Source: a virus | Length of the DNA stretch: 20,374 nt | Reading direction: 5' to 3' (one strand) | Virus record (IMG/VR): IMGVR_UViG_3300032291_000206 | Location: 1 to 20,374 of that record | In this document: in pieces, positions 12,330 through 18,629 of the stretch | Layout: each line of letters starts with the position of its first letter | How positions within the stretch are numbered: the stretch's first letter is position 1 | Program-made: the position numbers and the translations under genes | Notes under the pieces: model-generated | Databases searched by the model: none | Told to the model about the DNA's origin: nothing | Seen by the model: the letters and a program-made list of their open reading frames with translations, nothing else

Positions 12330-12524
12330 TTACATGCGCCAGATGCGTAAACCCCTAATATTTTCTTCGATCACGAGCTTCATAACCACCTTGATACGCA
12401 ACCTGCGTAGTATAGCTCTGACATCTTCTTTGGCACGTGGAGGGTTGAGGCACGGGATAAAGATCGACGTGCCTCGTCTGAATGCCTTCCAGTTAATGTC
12501 GTAACTAACTCCCTCGATCTGCAT
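12330..12524 (-). CDS. Small conserved-looking protein overlapping the primase 3' end
   Basis: This predicted 64-residue protein starts at the ATG at 12524 (MQIEGVSYDINWKAFRRG...). GAGG lies six bases upstream; I prefer this to the TTG at 12536, which adds only four residues. It overlaps the end of the primase-helicase gene by 20 bases in another frame and fills the otherwise empty space before the terminator. The sequence looks like a real protein: YDINWKAFRRGTSIFIPCLN followed by a basic helix and a KxVxExxIRGLRIWRM ending. I recall small phage proteins of this layout ('xDWxxFxxGxSFFIPC ... GLRIWR') without a known function. The opposite-strand frame over it is its shadow. Confidence 0.65.
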   Translation of the reverse strand: MQIEGVSYDINWKAFRRGTSIFIPCLNPPRAKEDVRAILRRLRIKVVMKLVIEENIRGLRIWRM

Positions 12525-15381
12525 CTTCGACCTCAAGACCTAAGGTGCTGCTGACATTGAAGAACTCTTGGATCGAGGTATCGAACTCAAGGCAGTAGAT
12601 CGGTGGGCCTTCCAGCTTCATGCCCTTGTTGATCCGCTTATACACTTTGCCTTTTTCTTTCATAATGCCTTGTTCCTTAAGCTGCCGCAGGGTCTCCTTG
12701 TAGTTGACCTGAATATCCGCACAGTCCTTCTTGAACGGGGCCGCAGCAATGAACATCTTCTTGGTGTCAGGCTCCCACCGGATCATTAGTTCGGCGCGAG
12801 GCTCCAGTATGGGAGCAGCGGGCATCTGGGAGCGTAAGTCTGCCCCGTCATTGACCACCAAGATGTTCTGCGTGTTGCGACGAATAAAATCACCGACTAT
12901 CTCGATGGCGTTGTTGCGTGGCGGTTCTACATCCTCACGAAGGCCAACCAGCATGTTGCAAGCCCAGTCATAGACGCGCATCATATCCCAGTCGATCAAC
13001 CCAATATTCTTAGCAATGGTGCCCCCTGCTAAGTTAGCAGCCAGTACCGCTGACCAGAAGCGTTCACGCGGTAACAGTTTCAGTTCACGATCCAACTTAG
13101 CTTGGGTGTTAAGCGCGATACGCTTGGCTTCTTCGTAATTCTTGACGAGCCACGTTGCGTAGATGCGACCGGCATGGCCGTGGTTGTCCATCAATTGGTG
13201 ATCAAACATATCCTTGGCAACGAACGGATCGAGTGCGTCTGTGTAGTCAATCTTGTACTCGACCAAGCGCATCAATTCACCGTCTGGGCTGCTCTTAGCT
13301 ACACCCATCTTTTCATAGAAGGACGAGTTTGACGAGCACAGAGCCATTGTCTGCCATGAGGTTGCGTTGTGGCGCAGTTCGTTCGCCGATGCCTTAACAC
13401 GATCCTTGCCCCGCCCCTGCGTGATATTGTAGACCAGCGCTGAGAACTCCTTGTGCTCCATATTAGTCATTTCATCGACGGTGTACGGCAGGTTGTTGTA
13501 CATACCGAGCCGCAGGATTTTAGCGTTCAGCGTATCTTCCTTCACGCAGCACAGGCCGTCCGGTGATCCCCAGATGCTGTTAGCCATGTGCAGGATCGTT
13601 GTCTTACCTGTACCGGAACTAGGGTGGATGACGTTAAGCATCGCGCCGCGTTGGCCCAAGAACTTAAATAGCGGCGCACCGAAGCCAGTAAGCGCAGCAA
13701 ACGCATGCGGCTCAAGTCCACGAGTACCGTATAGATTGAAGACTTCCTGCCACTTTTCAAACGAACCTACCGGCCCCATGCGCCTCGCAACCTCCGAAGT
13801 GGTTGACGATGGTGGGCTATAATATGCACCCTCTACCGTGATTTCCGAATCGCCAACGATAAACTTGCTGTCGTTGTCAGCCCATCCAAATTGTAATCTC
13901 ATTTTCTCTGCCTTCTCTGTGTTGGACAGCATCGACACCGATGCTCTCATGTATTCATTCATGAATTGAAACTCTTGTTTAGTGCAGAGGATACTTTCCC
14001 CTGCCAATAACTTCCGTAAATCCGTAGGCTCCACAGCCTGTGTAAGGGGCACCGTAAGTTCAGCGACACCGTCCTTGGGCTTATGGATTTTAATTACTGC
14101 AACATCCTTCAAGACCGGATCACGCATGCGCTTCAGGATGTACAGGTCGTAGGGCAACACACAGATGTCGCCTTCTTCCGACTCCTCACCGTTCTTATCT
14201 AATGGTGGCTTGCGGTAGATACCACCATTCTTCCCCCTGAAAAACGGAAACGGATACTCAGGGATTATGTGGATCGTCGGTAACGTACCTTCAAGTTCTG
14301 GTTCTTCTATGATGACGTTGTCAGCGTCAGTCGCTGCCTGAACCTCGCGGCCCAACGTGATCGGCGACTTGATCTTGCCCATGTGCGGACAGCCTTCGCA
14401 GCCACCAGGGTTATTACGTTCAAACACTTCGCAAGTGTGCGGCCCCAAGATGTGCTTGATCTTTTGCAGTGTCTTCCCTGGTTCATAGTCAGGGTGTCCT
14501 TCAGACAGCGTGTGGATCGCAGTATCTTGGTCGATACAGAACTTTGCCACCGACAGCGCGTTGAACCACCGACCTTCTGACAGGCTATCGCGAGTTTCAA
14601 AGCAGTCGAGCAGTTGCTGACAGCCCGTACCCTTTGCGCTGCGCGTCATGATCTTAGCGAAGCGTGACGCTACGTTTTCTTGCATGGACTTTGCAAGGTC
14701 CGATAGTTCCCGCTTCGGAATTTCAACGGGGGTTAAGTCTTGCGTTTTCACCCCTAGCGTTTTGTAGAACAACGTGAAGTCTACCGGCTTAGCCTTGGCC
14801 CACACCTCCACTGGTTTCGGAGGGTTGTCCTTGAAGTTGAGAGTGCCAGGTATGCGCAGGATGCGCGCCACATCGAAGACCTGCGGGTCGGTATAGAACT
14901 TATGGATATTACAGAGGTCACGCAGCCGTGCTGCCACTGGTTCCCACTCTTCGCGGGTGATGCTCTCGGTCAGCGCCCAGTATACGTGTATCCCGCGCCC
15001 TGAGTTGACGAGGATAGGCTTAGGTAAACCGGTGATCGCAAGGAAAGCCTTTAGTGCCTCGACCCCTGTTTCCTGATCTATGTATCCATCGGGTCGGCCA
15101 GTCTTCGGGTTCACCTCTGCCTTGGTTTCACCGCAGTCGATGTCGAGCCAGAAAGATTTTAGTCCAGCTACGTTATCCTTGGTGCGGTTTGCGTCCGTAG
15201 TATACTTGGCAACACCGAAGAAGACGTTACGCTCCTCGGCTATATAATCCTTAGCAAGGGCATCGACCTCTTCCCGCGTGGCGACCAGTTCCTGTCTAGT
15301 CCAAGTACCTTCCTTTATCCCGACAACAGCGAAGTAGCCGTCATCAGGTTGGACAGTTTGGAGGAGGTCAAAGTTTGTCAT
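12505..15381 (-). CDS. Primase-polymerase / helicase fusion protein
   Basis: I choose the ATG at 15381 (MTNFDLLQ; 958 residues) over the TTG two codons upstream; neither has a clear Shine-Dalgarno. The N-terminal 200 residues carry archaeo-eukaryotic primase motifs: WLDID (78-82, metal-binding DxD), SGRGIHVYW (127-135, nucleotide-binding His132) and DVARILRIPGTLNFK (170-184). A linker (about 220-300) leads to a possible Zn site (Cys317, Cys328, Cys331). Residues about 580-720 form a P-loop ATPase with Walker A HPSSGTGKTT (586-595, Lys593) and a Walker B-like YTVDEMTN (633-640), as in DUF927-type and related phage helicases. The C-terminal 80 residues look like a small winged-helix-type domain. 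It presumably makes primers or copies DNA and unwinds the phage fork. No separate DNA polymerase is seen in this window. Confidence 0.85.
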   Translation of the reverse strand: MTNFDLLQTVQPDDGYFAVVGIKEGTWTRQELVATREEVDALAKDYIAEERNVFFGVAKYTTDANRTKDNVAGLKSFWLDIDCGETKAEVNPKTGRPDGYIDQETGVEALKAFLAITGLPKPILVNSGRGIHVYWALTESITREEWEPVAARLRDLCNIHKFYTDPQVFDVARILRIPGTLNFKDNPPKPVEVWAKAKPVDFTLFYKTLGVKTQDLTPVEIPKRELSDLAKSMQENVASRFAKIMTRSAKGTGCQQLLDCFETRDSLSEGRWFNALSVAKFCIDQDTAIHTLSEGHPDYEPGKTLQKIKHILGPHTCEVFERNNPGGCEGCPHMGKIKSPITLGREVQAATDADNVIIEEPELEGTLPTIHIIPEYPFPFFRGKNGGIYRKPPLDKNGEESEEGDICVLPYDLYILKRMRDPVLKDVAVIKIHKPKDGVAELTVPLTQAVEPTDLRKLLAGESILCTKQEFQFMNEYMRASVSMLSNTEKAEKMRLQFGWADNDSKFIVGDSEITVEGAYYSPPSSTTSEVARRMGPVGSFEKWQEVFNLYGTRGLEPHAFAALTGFGAPLFKFLGQRGAMLNVIHPSSGTGKTTILHMANSIWGSPDGLCCVKEDTLNAKILRLGMYNNLPYTVDEMTNMEHKEFSALVYNITQGRGKDRVKASANELRHNATSWQTMALCSSNSSFYEKMGVAKSSPDGELMRLVEYKIDYTDALDPFVAKDMFDHQLMDNHGHAGRIYATWLVKNYEEAKRIALNTQAKLDRELKLLPRERFWSAVLAANLAGGTIAKNIGLIDWDMMRVYDWACNMLVGLREDVEPPRNNAIEIVGDFIRRNTQNILVVNDGADLRSQMPAAPILEPRAELMIRWEPDTKKMFIAAAPFKKDCADIQVNYKETLRQLKEQGIMKEKGKVYKRINKGMKLEGPPIYCLEFDTSIQEFFNVSSTLGLEVEDADRGS

Positions 15382-15437
15382 ATACAACAGTCGCCAGTCA
15401 TCAGACGCAAAAACGCCCGGAAAAAAGGGGGAAATAA

Positions 15438-15455
15438 CATAGGGCGAACCCTACG
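15438..15455 (-). promoter_or_regulatory. Stem-loop with UUCG loop at the end of the small HTH gene
   Basis: Read on the - strand, CGTAGGG (15455-15449) pairs with CCCTATG (15444-15438) around TTCG, giving seven pairs with one G-U. The stop TAG of the HTH gene lies inside the left arm. The hairpin is followed by pyrimidine-rich sequence (TTATTTCCCCCTTTTTT), not a clean U-tract. It could be an attenuator or mRNA-processing structure that lowers expression of the primase-helicase 57 bases downstream. Confidence 0.45.
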
Positions 15456-15681
15456 TAAGCGTGGAGATGTAGTTAGTAACTAGACCGTGGAGGGGTACAG
15501 CAGGATTGCTAGTCCCACTGAACCAATTATACACCGTCTGTCGGGTTACCCTAAACCTACTGGCGACAACTGTGACAGGCACATTGTACTTAATACACGC
15601 CCGTCCCAATTGCACACCCAGCTTCTTCTCGTTCGCTTGGTTATTCCGTTCGATAAGTCTCAGGCTATAGCCGTACGACAT
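15451..15681 (-). CDS. Small HTH DNA-binding protein
   Basis: This 76-residue protein starts two bases after the stop of the SSB-like gene (TGAgaATG), with GAGGA upstream. Residues about 22-57 contain a helix-turn-helix of Cro/XRE type, with VTVVASRFRVTRQTVYNWFSG as the positioning and recognition helices. The remainder is too short for any enzymatic or ligand-binding domain. Its place between SSB and primase suggests a regulator of the early operon or a replication accessory protein. A stem-loop covers its stop codon. The DNA-binding call is fairly secure; the target is unknown. Confidence 0.7.
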   Translation of the reverse strand: MSYGYSLRLIERNNQANEKKLGVQLGRACIKYNVPVTVVASRFRVTRQTVYNWFSGTSNPAVPLHGLVTNYISTLT

Positions 15682-15683
15682 TC

Positions 15684-16607
15684 TCAGTCCTCATCTTCAT
15701 CATCGCCATCGCCCCAAGTGGCAAGGACATTAGCAAGGTCTTTCTTTGGGATAGCAGTTTCCTCAGTGGCCTTAGAAGCGCGCTTCTTCGGAGCTTCAAC
15801 TACTTCCTCTTCGTCCTCATCCGGTTCGTCGGAGTAGGTAACCTTGGGCTGTGGTTTGGCTTCTTCCTTAGGTAGTGCCTTTGTCTCCCCTTGCGGTGCA
15901 ACCGTCAGCACGATCATCTGACGGGTAGTTGGGTCATTACGAGCTTCCTTGACCAGCGCATATTCTTCGTCGGTGATGCCGCGTACAGGAGTGAATTGCA
16001 GTTCCATCGTTTCCGCATCAAGGTTGTATGCGATGTTGGTCACGACACCGTCTGGGCTTTCGCCGTTGGCAATCAAGAACTTCACATATCCTTCGAACGG
16101 ATGCACGTTGCCGTTACCCTTACCGAAGAGCGACTTGGCTGGGACGTTGAACTGATAGACATCGCCAGACATATCGGTTTCGAGCAGAACTGCGATGCGG
16201 CGTTGGAAGCGGCATGCACGACCCCTACCGTTGTCGCCTGAACCCGAGACGTTCTGAGGGCACGACACGCAATTGCTAGCCTGTGGGTTACCGGCGGCTG
16301 CTTCAGGTTTATCACCTAGGTTTGACCAGCAGTCAGGTAGAGTAGGCTTGGCATCAGGGTCATACTTACCAGCATAGAACGTGCGGCTGACCTTAGGCAG
16401 TGCGTCCACGATGATAGCGTTGAACTCACCACGGATGGCTTTGCCGATCTGCTCACCGTTCACAAGGCGCTTGAAGGTGCCGTTGGTGTTGGTCTGGATA
16501 CGGCGGCTGTTGTTAACCGAGGCAAGTGATTTACCGAGGTCGGACAGTTCGCGCTTTGATGCTGTCGATACAGCACCTGCTTCTTTAAAAATAGTTACGT
16601 TGCTCAT
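15684..16607 (-). CDS. Probable ssDNA-binding protein with Cys cluster and acidic tail
   Basis: This 307-residue protein starts at the ATG at 16607, with AAGGAG eight bases upstream. Residues 18-34 share a motif (KRELSDLGKSL...SR) with the primase-helicase. The core (about 55-235) is beta-rich and contains Cys93, Cys113, Cys116 and Cys132 (PDCW, NCVSCPQN, RACRF), which could hold Zn as in T4 gp32. The last 70 residues are low complexity and strongly acidic, ending GDDEDED, the type of C-terminal tail that SSB proteins use to recruit partners. Its location between other replication genes supports an SSB role. I do not see a diagnostic family signature, so this is inferred from architecture; it could instead be a recombination mediator. 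Confidence 0.55.
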   Translation of the reverse strand: MSNVTIFKEAGAVSTASKRELSDLGKSLASVNNSRRIQTNTNGTFKRLVNGEQIGKAIRGEFNAIIVDALPKVSRTFYAGKYDPDAKPTLPDCWSNLGDKPEAAAGNPQASNCVSCPQNVSGSGDNGRGRACRFQRRIAVLLETDMSGDVYQFNVPAKSLFGKGNGNVHPFEGYVKFLIANGESPDGVVTNIAYNLDAETMELQFTPVRGITDEEYALVKEARNDPTTRQMIVLTVAPQGETKALPKEEAKPQPKVTYSDEPDEDEEEVVEAPKKRASKATEETAIPKKDLANVLATWGDGDDEDED

Positions 16608-16618
16608 GTAGTATCTCC

Positions 16619-17020
16619 TTACTTAGCTGTTGGTTTGCGTACGCGCACTACGTACTTGGTGTCGGCTTGAAGGCCGACTGGAAGATCGTCGGGATTTTCT
16701 GCTAAAAATTGTTTCATGTTGCCGTTATGGATACGCTGCTCAAGCAGATGCAAAGCATCGTGCTCCTTAATGAACTCGTACGTAGACTCCCAATCGTTCG
16801 TCCAGTAACGGGTGTTCACTGTGCGCGTAACCGTCCCAGCAGGGGTCCGGATGCTATCCAGATTTTGTTCGTTACACAAGTCAAGAAGTGCAGCAGATAA
16901 CAGGTCCTGCTGTGCCCTAAGATCGGTAATCTGATCCTTGTGCGCTTCTTCCTTTTCATTGATAGCGTCACGTATCTTGCGGTAGGCAAGGACGAGTTCA
17001 TCCGCTTTCATGTCTGTCAT
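16619..17020 (-). CDS. Conserved coiled-coil phage protein of unknown function
   Basis: This is a 133-residue protein. The start ATG at 17020 has AAGGAGCAAACC directly upstream and lies about 26 nt downstream of the promoter -10 element. Residues 5-52 form a charged helix with coiled-coil character (AYRKIRDAINEKEEAHKDQI). They are followed by a beta hairpin (DSIRTPAGTVTRTV, 55-68), then W73/W77 and the helix YEFIKEHDALHLLEQR, and end with GLQADTKYVVRVRKP. A helix plus 'TPxGT' hairpin occurs in several small phage proteins next to replication genes (the Gp157 and Gam-like groups look superficially alike). I cannot place it in a named family. As first gene after the promoter, and next to the SSB-like gene, it is likely expressed early. 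Confidence 0.7.
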   Translation of the reverse strand: MTDMKADELVLAYRKIRDAINEKEEAHKDQITDLRAQQDLLSAALLDLCNEQNLDSIRTPAGTVTRTVNTRYWTNDWESTYEFIKEHDALHLLEQRIHNGNMKQFLAENPDDLPVGLQADTKYVVRVRKPTAK

Positions 17021-17045: not shown

Positions 17046-17073
17046 ATACTAATTATACATTATACATTGTCAA
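17046..17073 (-). promoter_or_regulatory. Sigma70-like promoter inside the leftward operon
   Basis: On the - strand a perfect -35 TTGACA (17073-17068) is followed after 16 bases by TAGTAT (17051-17046); TATAGA lies 3 bases further on as an alternative -10. The spacer is very AT-rich and repeats TGTATAAT. The -35 contains the TGA stop of the SNF2 helicase gene, so the promoter is built on the end of that frame. It should add transcription of the coiled-coil, SSB-like, HTH and primase genes by host RNA polymerase. Confidence 0.65.
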
Positions 17074-18629
17074 GCGCTTTGTAGAATTTCTTGTCGGTAG
17101 AGGTCGATTATTTTCTGGTGGTTCTCGATGTTGCCCCTTAACATCTTGTAAAGCTTATGTTCTACCTCGCTGCCGGAGATGTGCACGATGGTCATAGGAT
17201 GCTTCTGACCTGGCCTGTCGATACGGGCGTTGGCTTGTAGGTAGGTCTCCACGCTGGTCACAGGTGCGTACCAGATGATTGTGTCTGCCTCTGTCAGGGT
17301 CAGGCCGTGGCTTGCCGCTTGTGGTTGGATGATGAGTACACGGGGGTCGGGCAGTGACTGAAAGTCCGCGACGATCTGGCTGCGCTTGTTGAGGTTGACC
17401 TTACCATTGATGACCTCGCAACTGATCTTCTCTTTTGCCATCACATCACGCAGTAACTCGATGGTGTGCGTGAACGGCACAAAGACCAATACCTTACGGT
17501 TAGTTTCGCGAATCACTTCCAGCACGGCGTTGATGCGGTTGCTCACATCGAACTGCACGACCTCGCCAGTATCCGAATAGACCGCACCTCCACTGATCTG
17601 CAGCAGCTTGTTCAGGTTAGTCGCCGCATTGACCGCACTGACTTGCTCGCCGTCAGCCTGCATGCACATCTGGGTCTTAAGCAGTTTATAGTACTTGTTC
17701 TGCTGCGGCGTCAGGGGTGCGTCACGATCTACATGGGTAACCTTAGGTAGGTCGAGGCACTGGCTCTTCTCAAACCGGATCGCTGGCTGTAGGATGCGAT
17801 GTACGATGGACTGCGCTTGCGGTTTCACGGCCCATTTAAACTGCGTGACCTTGTACAACACCGAGTCGCGGAACGCGCCGAAGAACTTGGGGCATCCTTC
17901 GGGGTTGACCAACTTAGCTAGCCCATAAGCATCGACGGGCGACTGTGCGGCTGGCGTACCAGTAAGCATCCATAGCCAAGGGTCTATCTCTTTGACGATG
18001 TCCTTGAGTATCTTCCACCGAGTCGTTGACGGGTTCTTGTAGGCTGTCGCCTCATCTACCACGATCATATCGAAACCACCTGCGGCAATCTCGTCCTTGA
18101 CCACTGCTAATCCATCGAAGTTGATGATGACGAACTCGGAGCCAGCAGCGATGATCTTCTTACGGGTCTTAGCATCCCCGTGGGCTACACTGCATGAGCG
18201 ATGCATCGCGAATTTAAACAGGTCCTGCTGCCACGCAGCCTTCATGATCGACAGTGGGCAAAGCACAAGGACGCGCTTAATCTTGCCTAGCTTCATGAGG
18301 TAGTCGGCAGACCAGATCACGCTGGCTGTCTTGCCTGTGCCCGCCTCACTAAAACAGAACGCCCGCTTGCGGAGCGAGAGGAATGACGATGTGGTTTTCT
18401 GGTGATCAAACGGAGCAAACTTACCGGTCCACTGGTAGTCGCGCAGCAGCGGGGAAGGGGCATCATGTCCAAGGGCAGCTAAAGCCTGGGCTTCTTTCAA
18501 TCCCCAATGCACAGCAACCTTGGACGATCCACGATGGGTCTCCATCAAGGCGCTTTTCTTTACTGTTGATATAATAGCATCAGGGTCCCGTGTCTCCACG
18601 AGGAGAACTTTGTCTTCAACGATCCGCAT
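17070..18629 (-). CDS. SNF2/DEAD-type superfamily 2 helicase
   Basis: This 519-residue protein starts at the ATG at 18629 behind AAGGAGCAAACTA. Both RecA-like lobes are present. Lobe 1 has FDHQ (74-77), Walker A SEAGTGKT (94-101), motif Ia LVLCPLSIMKAAW, Walker B VVDEATAYKN (190-199; the DEAx box reads DEAT) and motif III LTGTPA (222-227). Lobe 2 has KVLVFVPFTHTIELL (379-393), QAASHGLTLTEADTIIWY (437-454) and motif VI QANARIDRPGQ (465-475) with its arginines. This is the compact SNF2 type common in phages, without extra chromatin-type domains. It probably translocates on or remodels DNA in replication or recombination, together with the adjacent PD-(D/E)XK nuclease and SSB-like protein. The stop codon overlaps the promoter for the next genes. 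Confidence 0.9.
   Translation of the reverse strand: MRIVEDKVLLVETRDPDAIISTVKKSALMETHRGSSKVAVHWGLKEAQALAALGHDAPSPLLRDYQWTGKFAPFDHQKTTSSFLSLRKRAFCFSEAGTGKTASVIWSADYLMKLGKIKRVLVLCPLSIMKAAWQQDLFKFAMHRSCSVAHGDAKTRKKIIAAGSEFVIINFDGLAVVKDEIAAGGFDMIVVDEATAYKNPSTTRWKILKDIVKEIDPWLWMLTGTPAAQSPVDAYGLAKLVNPEGCPKFFGAFRDSVLYKVTQFKWAVKPQAQSIVHRILQPAIRFEKSQCLDLPKVTHVDRDAPLTPQQNKYYKLLKTQMCMQADGEQVSAVNAATNLNKLLQISGGAVYSDTGEVVQFDVSNRINAVLEVIRETNRKVLVFVPFTHTIELLRDVMAKEKISCEVINGKVNLNKRSQIVADFQSLPDPRVLIIQPQAASHGLTLTEADTIIWYAPVTSVETYLQANARIDRPGQKHPMTIVHISGSEVEHKLYKMLRGNIENHQKIIDLYRQEILQSA

Follow-up and report, generated by a model that had tools for sequence, protein, structure and literature searches.

A short motif mirrored in the SSB-like protein and the primase-helicase of a phage operon varies in parallel between its two copies

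Comparison of the proteins of related phages establishes that a short motif is paired between an SSB-like protein and the primase-helicase encoded in the same operon, and that the two copies have co-evolved. The pair was recognized in a window of 20,374 nucleotides, a 20 kb piece of an uncultured virus, which contains the following features.

12505..15387, minus strand: primase-helicase, 960 aa, consisting of a putative AEP-like primase domain, a linker, a helical/Cys region and a DUF927 helicase
14683..14715, minus strand: primase copy of the motif, KRELSDLAKSM, residues 225-235 counted from a TTG start, just past the disordered linker 216-224
15451..15681, minus strand: small HTH protein, 76 aa, between the SSB and primase-helicase genes, without the motif
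15684..16607, minus strand: SSB-like protein, 307 aa, with an N-terminal arm, a predicted OB-type core and an acidic C-terminal tail
16524..16556, minus strand: SSB copy of the motif, KRELSDLGKSL, residues 18-28, directly ahead of the core
16619..17020, minus strand: DUF7307-like (Pam3 gp33-like) protein, operon neighbour upstream of the SSB gene, without the motif
17070..18629, minus strand: SNF2-family helicase, operon neighbour, without the motif

An earlier sequence-only reading of the window had described a KRELSDL-x-KS motif in both proteins, near the start of the SSB-like protein and in the linker after the primase domain, with the two genes in one operon. Both peptides are indeed read on the minus strand at these places, and the gene arrangement is conserved in nearly all relatives. 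Its primase residue range, 223-239, counts from an ATG two codons past the TTG; as for its tally of 11 matches in 17 positions, the strings compared are 18 letters long and share 11 identities, and the 17-residue segments share 10. By itself, this match in a single genome is unconvincing because a shared 7-mer or longer also arises between some two proteins in 79 of 1000 shuffles of the 15 main proteins of the window; luck could thus explain it, and it is the homologues that decide.

Scans of IMG/VR yielded at least about 220 loci with both genes side by side, from which 83 non-redundant phage genomes (~38 effective at 70% identity) were used for statistics; the relatives that carry a KRELSDL-type motif are all uncultured. 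Among 282,150 pairs of 11-residue windows, the reported pair ranks first for mean similarity within the same genome. A profile built from the SSB motifs alone places the primase motif as the top primase window in 79 of the 83 genomes and, in the reverse search, a profile of the primase motifs retrieves the SSB motif as the top SSB window in 80. The resulting consensus is K/R-R-x-L-S/T-x-L-A/G-K/Q-x-L. Genome-wide scans of six relatives, of which four are long contigs (54-66 kb) and two are partial (39 and 29 kb), always give the top two scores to the SSB and the primase-helicase, and no third carrier of the motif scores above the shuffle range.

The motif is retained in both proteins and, rather than drifting freely, its copies vary together. 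Similarity between copies of the same genome exceeds that between copies of distant genomes by 7.8 BLOSUM units, compared to 0.01 +/- 0.35 for all window pairs, and the 14 largest values of this excess all lie on the diagonal formed by the SSB and primase motifs. Thus, SSB KRELTGLAKTL pairs with primase KRPLTALGKAL, ERELSEFAKA with EREISEFAKA (sharing SEFAKA), PRESALGKKF with RRELSALGKKF (sharing ALGKKF), KRESRLADKI with RRKSNLGDKL and LPPSKLGQQI with LPPSPLAQMI. Six Pagel tests, uncorrected and run on a FastTree topology built without the motifs, indicate dependent change at motif position 6 (p=5e-7), position 7 (p=3e-4) and positions 3 and 5 (p=0.006), with positions 8 (A/G) and 9 (K/Q) falling below significance. 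Identical residues are encoded by the same codon in 189 cases against 178 expected, a near agreement implying that the copies are not recent, in line with the synonymous differences that had been pointed out, and are confirmed, for the window; because synonymous codons are randomized, selection acts on the protein. A DNA- or RNA-level element was considered as the cause of the likeness and rejected, codon identity being what codon usage predicts.

In the AlphaFold2 models, Ser22 of the SSB-like protein precedes a short helix formed by residues 23-29 and Ser229 of the primase-helicase one formed by residues 230-236, so that each serine is positioned as a helix N-cap; this predicted role would explain why the Ser/Thr of the motif is near-invariant. 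Confidence blocks are near 60 around the SSB helix and range from 59 to 84 around that of the primase, low-to-moderate values that are expected of a flexible arm. Next to the primase motif lies a helical domain that is predicted to be well folded, with a pLDDT of 84 from residue 231.

More distant relatives, the groups of Pseudomonas phage Rollin and Rhizobium phage RHph_TM3_14A, share the operon, with 25-30% identity, and mirror a different set of letters at the two corresponding places, for example LAASQVSPSDLGAGI / LALSQVSPESLSAGV and NVNMIAATGTG / DVNIIAATGAG. At locus L274, SSB FGLPSTKLAASQVSPSDLGAGIGAA matches primase LGKPPSRLALSQVSPESLSAGVAPA with a score of 64; the L261 pair, AGASNVNMIAATGTGGGQ / AGAADVNIIAATGAGLAQ, scores 57, and those of L275 and L259 score 68 and 44, each of the four being above all 200 shuffles. 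Nothing else on the L261 and L274 loci matches the SSB arm nearly as well as the primase linker does and, in the matched cases of these groups, the SSB copy again lies ahead of the core and the primase copy in the linker past the primase domain. The match is weaker or non-significant in Rollin, RHph_TM3_14A itself, L262, L266 and L268.

Loss of the arm is accompanied by decay of the primase copy. In L089-L093 the SSB begins at its core, without an arm, and in the corresponding primase segment the Ser/Thr is gone and little of the signature is left (profile scores of 4.7 to 6.5, versus a median of 27.4). The SSB of L202 also lacks the arm, and the primase motif scores -2.4 in a primase that is closer to that of the window (59% identity versus 41% for L089-L093). 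All these arm-less genomes retain the SNF2, DUF7307, HTH and primase neighbour genes. Phages Xp15 and HHU4 keep the SSB arm and have primases of another type without a copy; no mirrored partner of the SSB arms of Xp15, HHU4 and KPP25 was found within about 40 kb. The arms of Xp15 and HHU4 fit an SSB-SSB contact as the first job of the arm.

Which surface receives the motif was approached by partial Mantel tests covering the SSB core, the primase-helicase and the neighbouring operon proteins. The SSB core has the highest frequency of windows co-varying with both copies (6.2%, against 0-3.3% in the other proteins); this signal is weak, and single SNF2 and primase windows reach a similar level of co-variation. 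The pattern is suggestive of the SSB core as the receptor.

The closest known counterpart is T4 gp32, in which cooperativity comes from docking of residues 1-21 onto the core of the adjacent molecule (PMC12893549, PMC11551737). Like its N-terminal (B) domain, the segment described here is a short basic arm bearing Ser/Thr ahead of a putative OB core, in a protein that ends in an acidic C-terminal tail, and the predicted core fold may be similar, the model aligning with the RB69 gp32 core (2a1k) at a VIA-align Z of 6.5, in the grey zone (rmsd 4.5, 155 aligned), with a Foldseek E that is not significant. A sequence relation to gp32 is not detectable: hhalign of the SSB family profile against the single T4 gp32 sequence gives no match, the motif profile gives the T4 gp32 arm a non-significant score (p 0.17), and the LAST motif (K/R)3(S/T)2, three basic followed by two hydroxyl residues, does not occur in the consensus, which here runs K/R-R-x-L-S/T-x-L. 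The structure that matches the SSB core best, ahead of RB69 gp32, belongs to the phiC31 recombination directionality factor (9teh, Z 8.5, also grey zone and likewise without a match at the sequence level), which may have a gp32-like fold turned to another use. A comparison of the gp32 arm with 15 proteins of T4 replication and recombination brings out no clear copy; the best candidate, the UvsX tail, scores 32 in T4 (P=0.06) and was rejected because the likeness is absent from other T4-like phages.

By analogy with gp32, the SSB arm would end in a short N-capped helix that docks on the core of the adjacent SSB, leading to cooperative coating of DNA. The primase-helicase would carry a copy of this helix where the module following the primase domain begins; by docking on the same SSB site, the copy would let the enzyme join or cap the SSB filament and be positioned at the single-stranded template. 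One socket would thus take two plugs, and drift of the socket would force the same change in both; conversely, the simplest account of two plugs that change in step is a single socket. Direct docking, a shared socket and the SSB core as that socket are what we infer from these data. That the arm provides SSB-SSB cooperativity and that the primase linker mimics it at the same site is a proposal to which we give about even chances. A little below that we place the idea of a self-updating recognition code, whereby the arm was copied into the primase-helicase, the enzyme enters the SSB filament posing as a subunit, and the co-evolution of arm, mimic and socket is rapid enough for codes to differ between related phages; were this true, each phage's replisome would recognize its own SSB alone.

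The sequence-only reading had proposed either a docking sequence common to both proteins for a third replication protein or homologous helices that pair in one complex. A shared docking sequence remains the best reading; as to its receptor, the evidence leans modestly towards the SSB core rather than a third protein. Docking of both SSB and primase-helicase on the PolA-type polymerase, the SNF2 helicase, the DUF7307 protein or a host replication protein would agree with the same rank, excess, Pagel and profile statistics, with the joint occurrence of the SNF2, DUF7307, SSB, HTH and primase genes in nearly all relatives and with the presence of a family A polymerase in the same genome; the persistence of all neighbour genes where the arm is lost and the smaller share of neighbour windows that co-vary with both copies make it rather unlikely, and a host receptor, in particular, would hardly cause so wide a divergence of the motif inside one phage group. 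Alternatively, the copies could be alike because the SSB arm binds the primase helix directly and SSB arms bind one another. Such homotypic pairing would account for the parallel identity of two segments that are both predicted to be short helices, but a short helix with a single L-x3/4-L face offers little surface for a specific homodimer and the mirrored segment of the Rollin group is rich in Gly/Ala, so that we regard it as distinctly unlikely.

We consider it improbable that the primase helix docks inside its own primase-helicase, with the SSB arm competing for the pocket: the motif does abut a well-folded helical domain, but primase windows co-vary with the motifs no more than those of other proteins do, and an SSB arm is also kept by phages in which the primase has no copy. 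Similarity that at times spans 20-25 residues (L248, L221, L274) is what a relic of one ancient segment duplication, or of repeated gene conversion, could leave without any shared function; neutral copies would, however, have diverged, whereas these change in parallel over randomized synonymous codons, and we give this explanation hardly any weight. Chance, which the shuffles of the window would still allow, is refuted by the homologues through the first rank of the pair and the reciprocal profile matches, and its likelihood is close to nil.

Sliding-clamp clients present one common peptide to the clamp, as exemplified by the beta-clamp motif QL[SD]LF and the PIP box. The mirrored motif is likewise a single linear motif common to several replication proteins; it differs in that the conserved Gln is absent, that there are exactly two carriers per genome (in the six scanned) and that its letters vary by lineage. 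In phage T7, the acidic C-terminal tail of gp2.5 docks on a replisome partner. The acidic C-terminal tail of T7 gp4 contacts gp5 (PMC12593628), so that, as proposed here, SSB and primase-helicase each bear a docking element for a replisome partner; the T7 tails, however, are acidic and of low specificity, whereas here the element is a basic helix, N-capped and specific, whose copies in the two proteins evolve in parallel. CcPol-MP polymerase-SSB pairs, found beside DUF927-type helicases of mobile elements, also couple an SSB-type protein with a priming or helicase module in one operon, but their binding involves varied N-terminal regions of the polymerase, and a mirrored peptide is not mentioned in the accessible part of that report (PMC10061031). 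Full-text literature searches did not retrieve a description of such a mirrored SSB/primase-helicase pair.

How a phage primase-helicase locates the strand coated by its own SSB is usually explained by generic acidic tails. The present sequences point instead to a specific plug common to both proteins, of which dozens of natural matched variants exist that can be swapped and tested. If the arm mimicry is true, it may stop co-infecting phages from borrowing one another's replisome. The approach also offers a general search, in which genomes are screened for SSB arms that recur in another of their own replication proteins.

The SSB core contains four invariant cysteines (93, 113, 116 and 132), in a pattern compatible with a putative zinc site. 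Its acidic C-terminal tail ends in WGDGDDEDED and is kept acidic in relatives; the conserved DLAxVxxxWGDxDD tail is likely to be a second docking element of the SSB's own. In the primase-helicase, residues 7-197 match a PHROG primase/polymerase profile (E=7e-12), the match to PDB PrimPol being weak only (E=0.56), and the DUF927 domain is recognized by PF06048 (E=3.5e-24). The two proteins also resemble each other, though less strongly, in a CxxCP element (NCVSCP, SSB residues 109-117; GCEGCP, primase-helicase residues 326-334), probably a metal site in each. The conserved order is SNF2 helicase, DUF7307-like protein, SSB, small HTH protein and primase-helicase, with the small HTH protein adjoining the SSB and primase-helicase genes in most relatives; in two of them the SSB gene is broken into two adjoining ORFs (L202 2407-3838, L235 4235-5701).

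In Thermoanaerobacterium phage THSA-485A (L277 5050-5793, 5815-6552), the SSB arm FKLPALNDNMNEAYSEEME resembles the C-terminus FKCPKLNRYIQDAINFEIE of the protein encoded immediately upstream (P 0.01 among seven tests). Relative G001 encodes a small protein (L098 5106-5495) resembling the bacterial RNA polymerase alpha C-terminal domain (PF03118, E=2.4e-14), a possible modulator of host transcription. Finally, the primase-helicase of RHph_TM3_14A (L095 / L258) carries the GenBank label 'putative integrase protein', most likely a misannotation.
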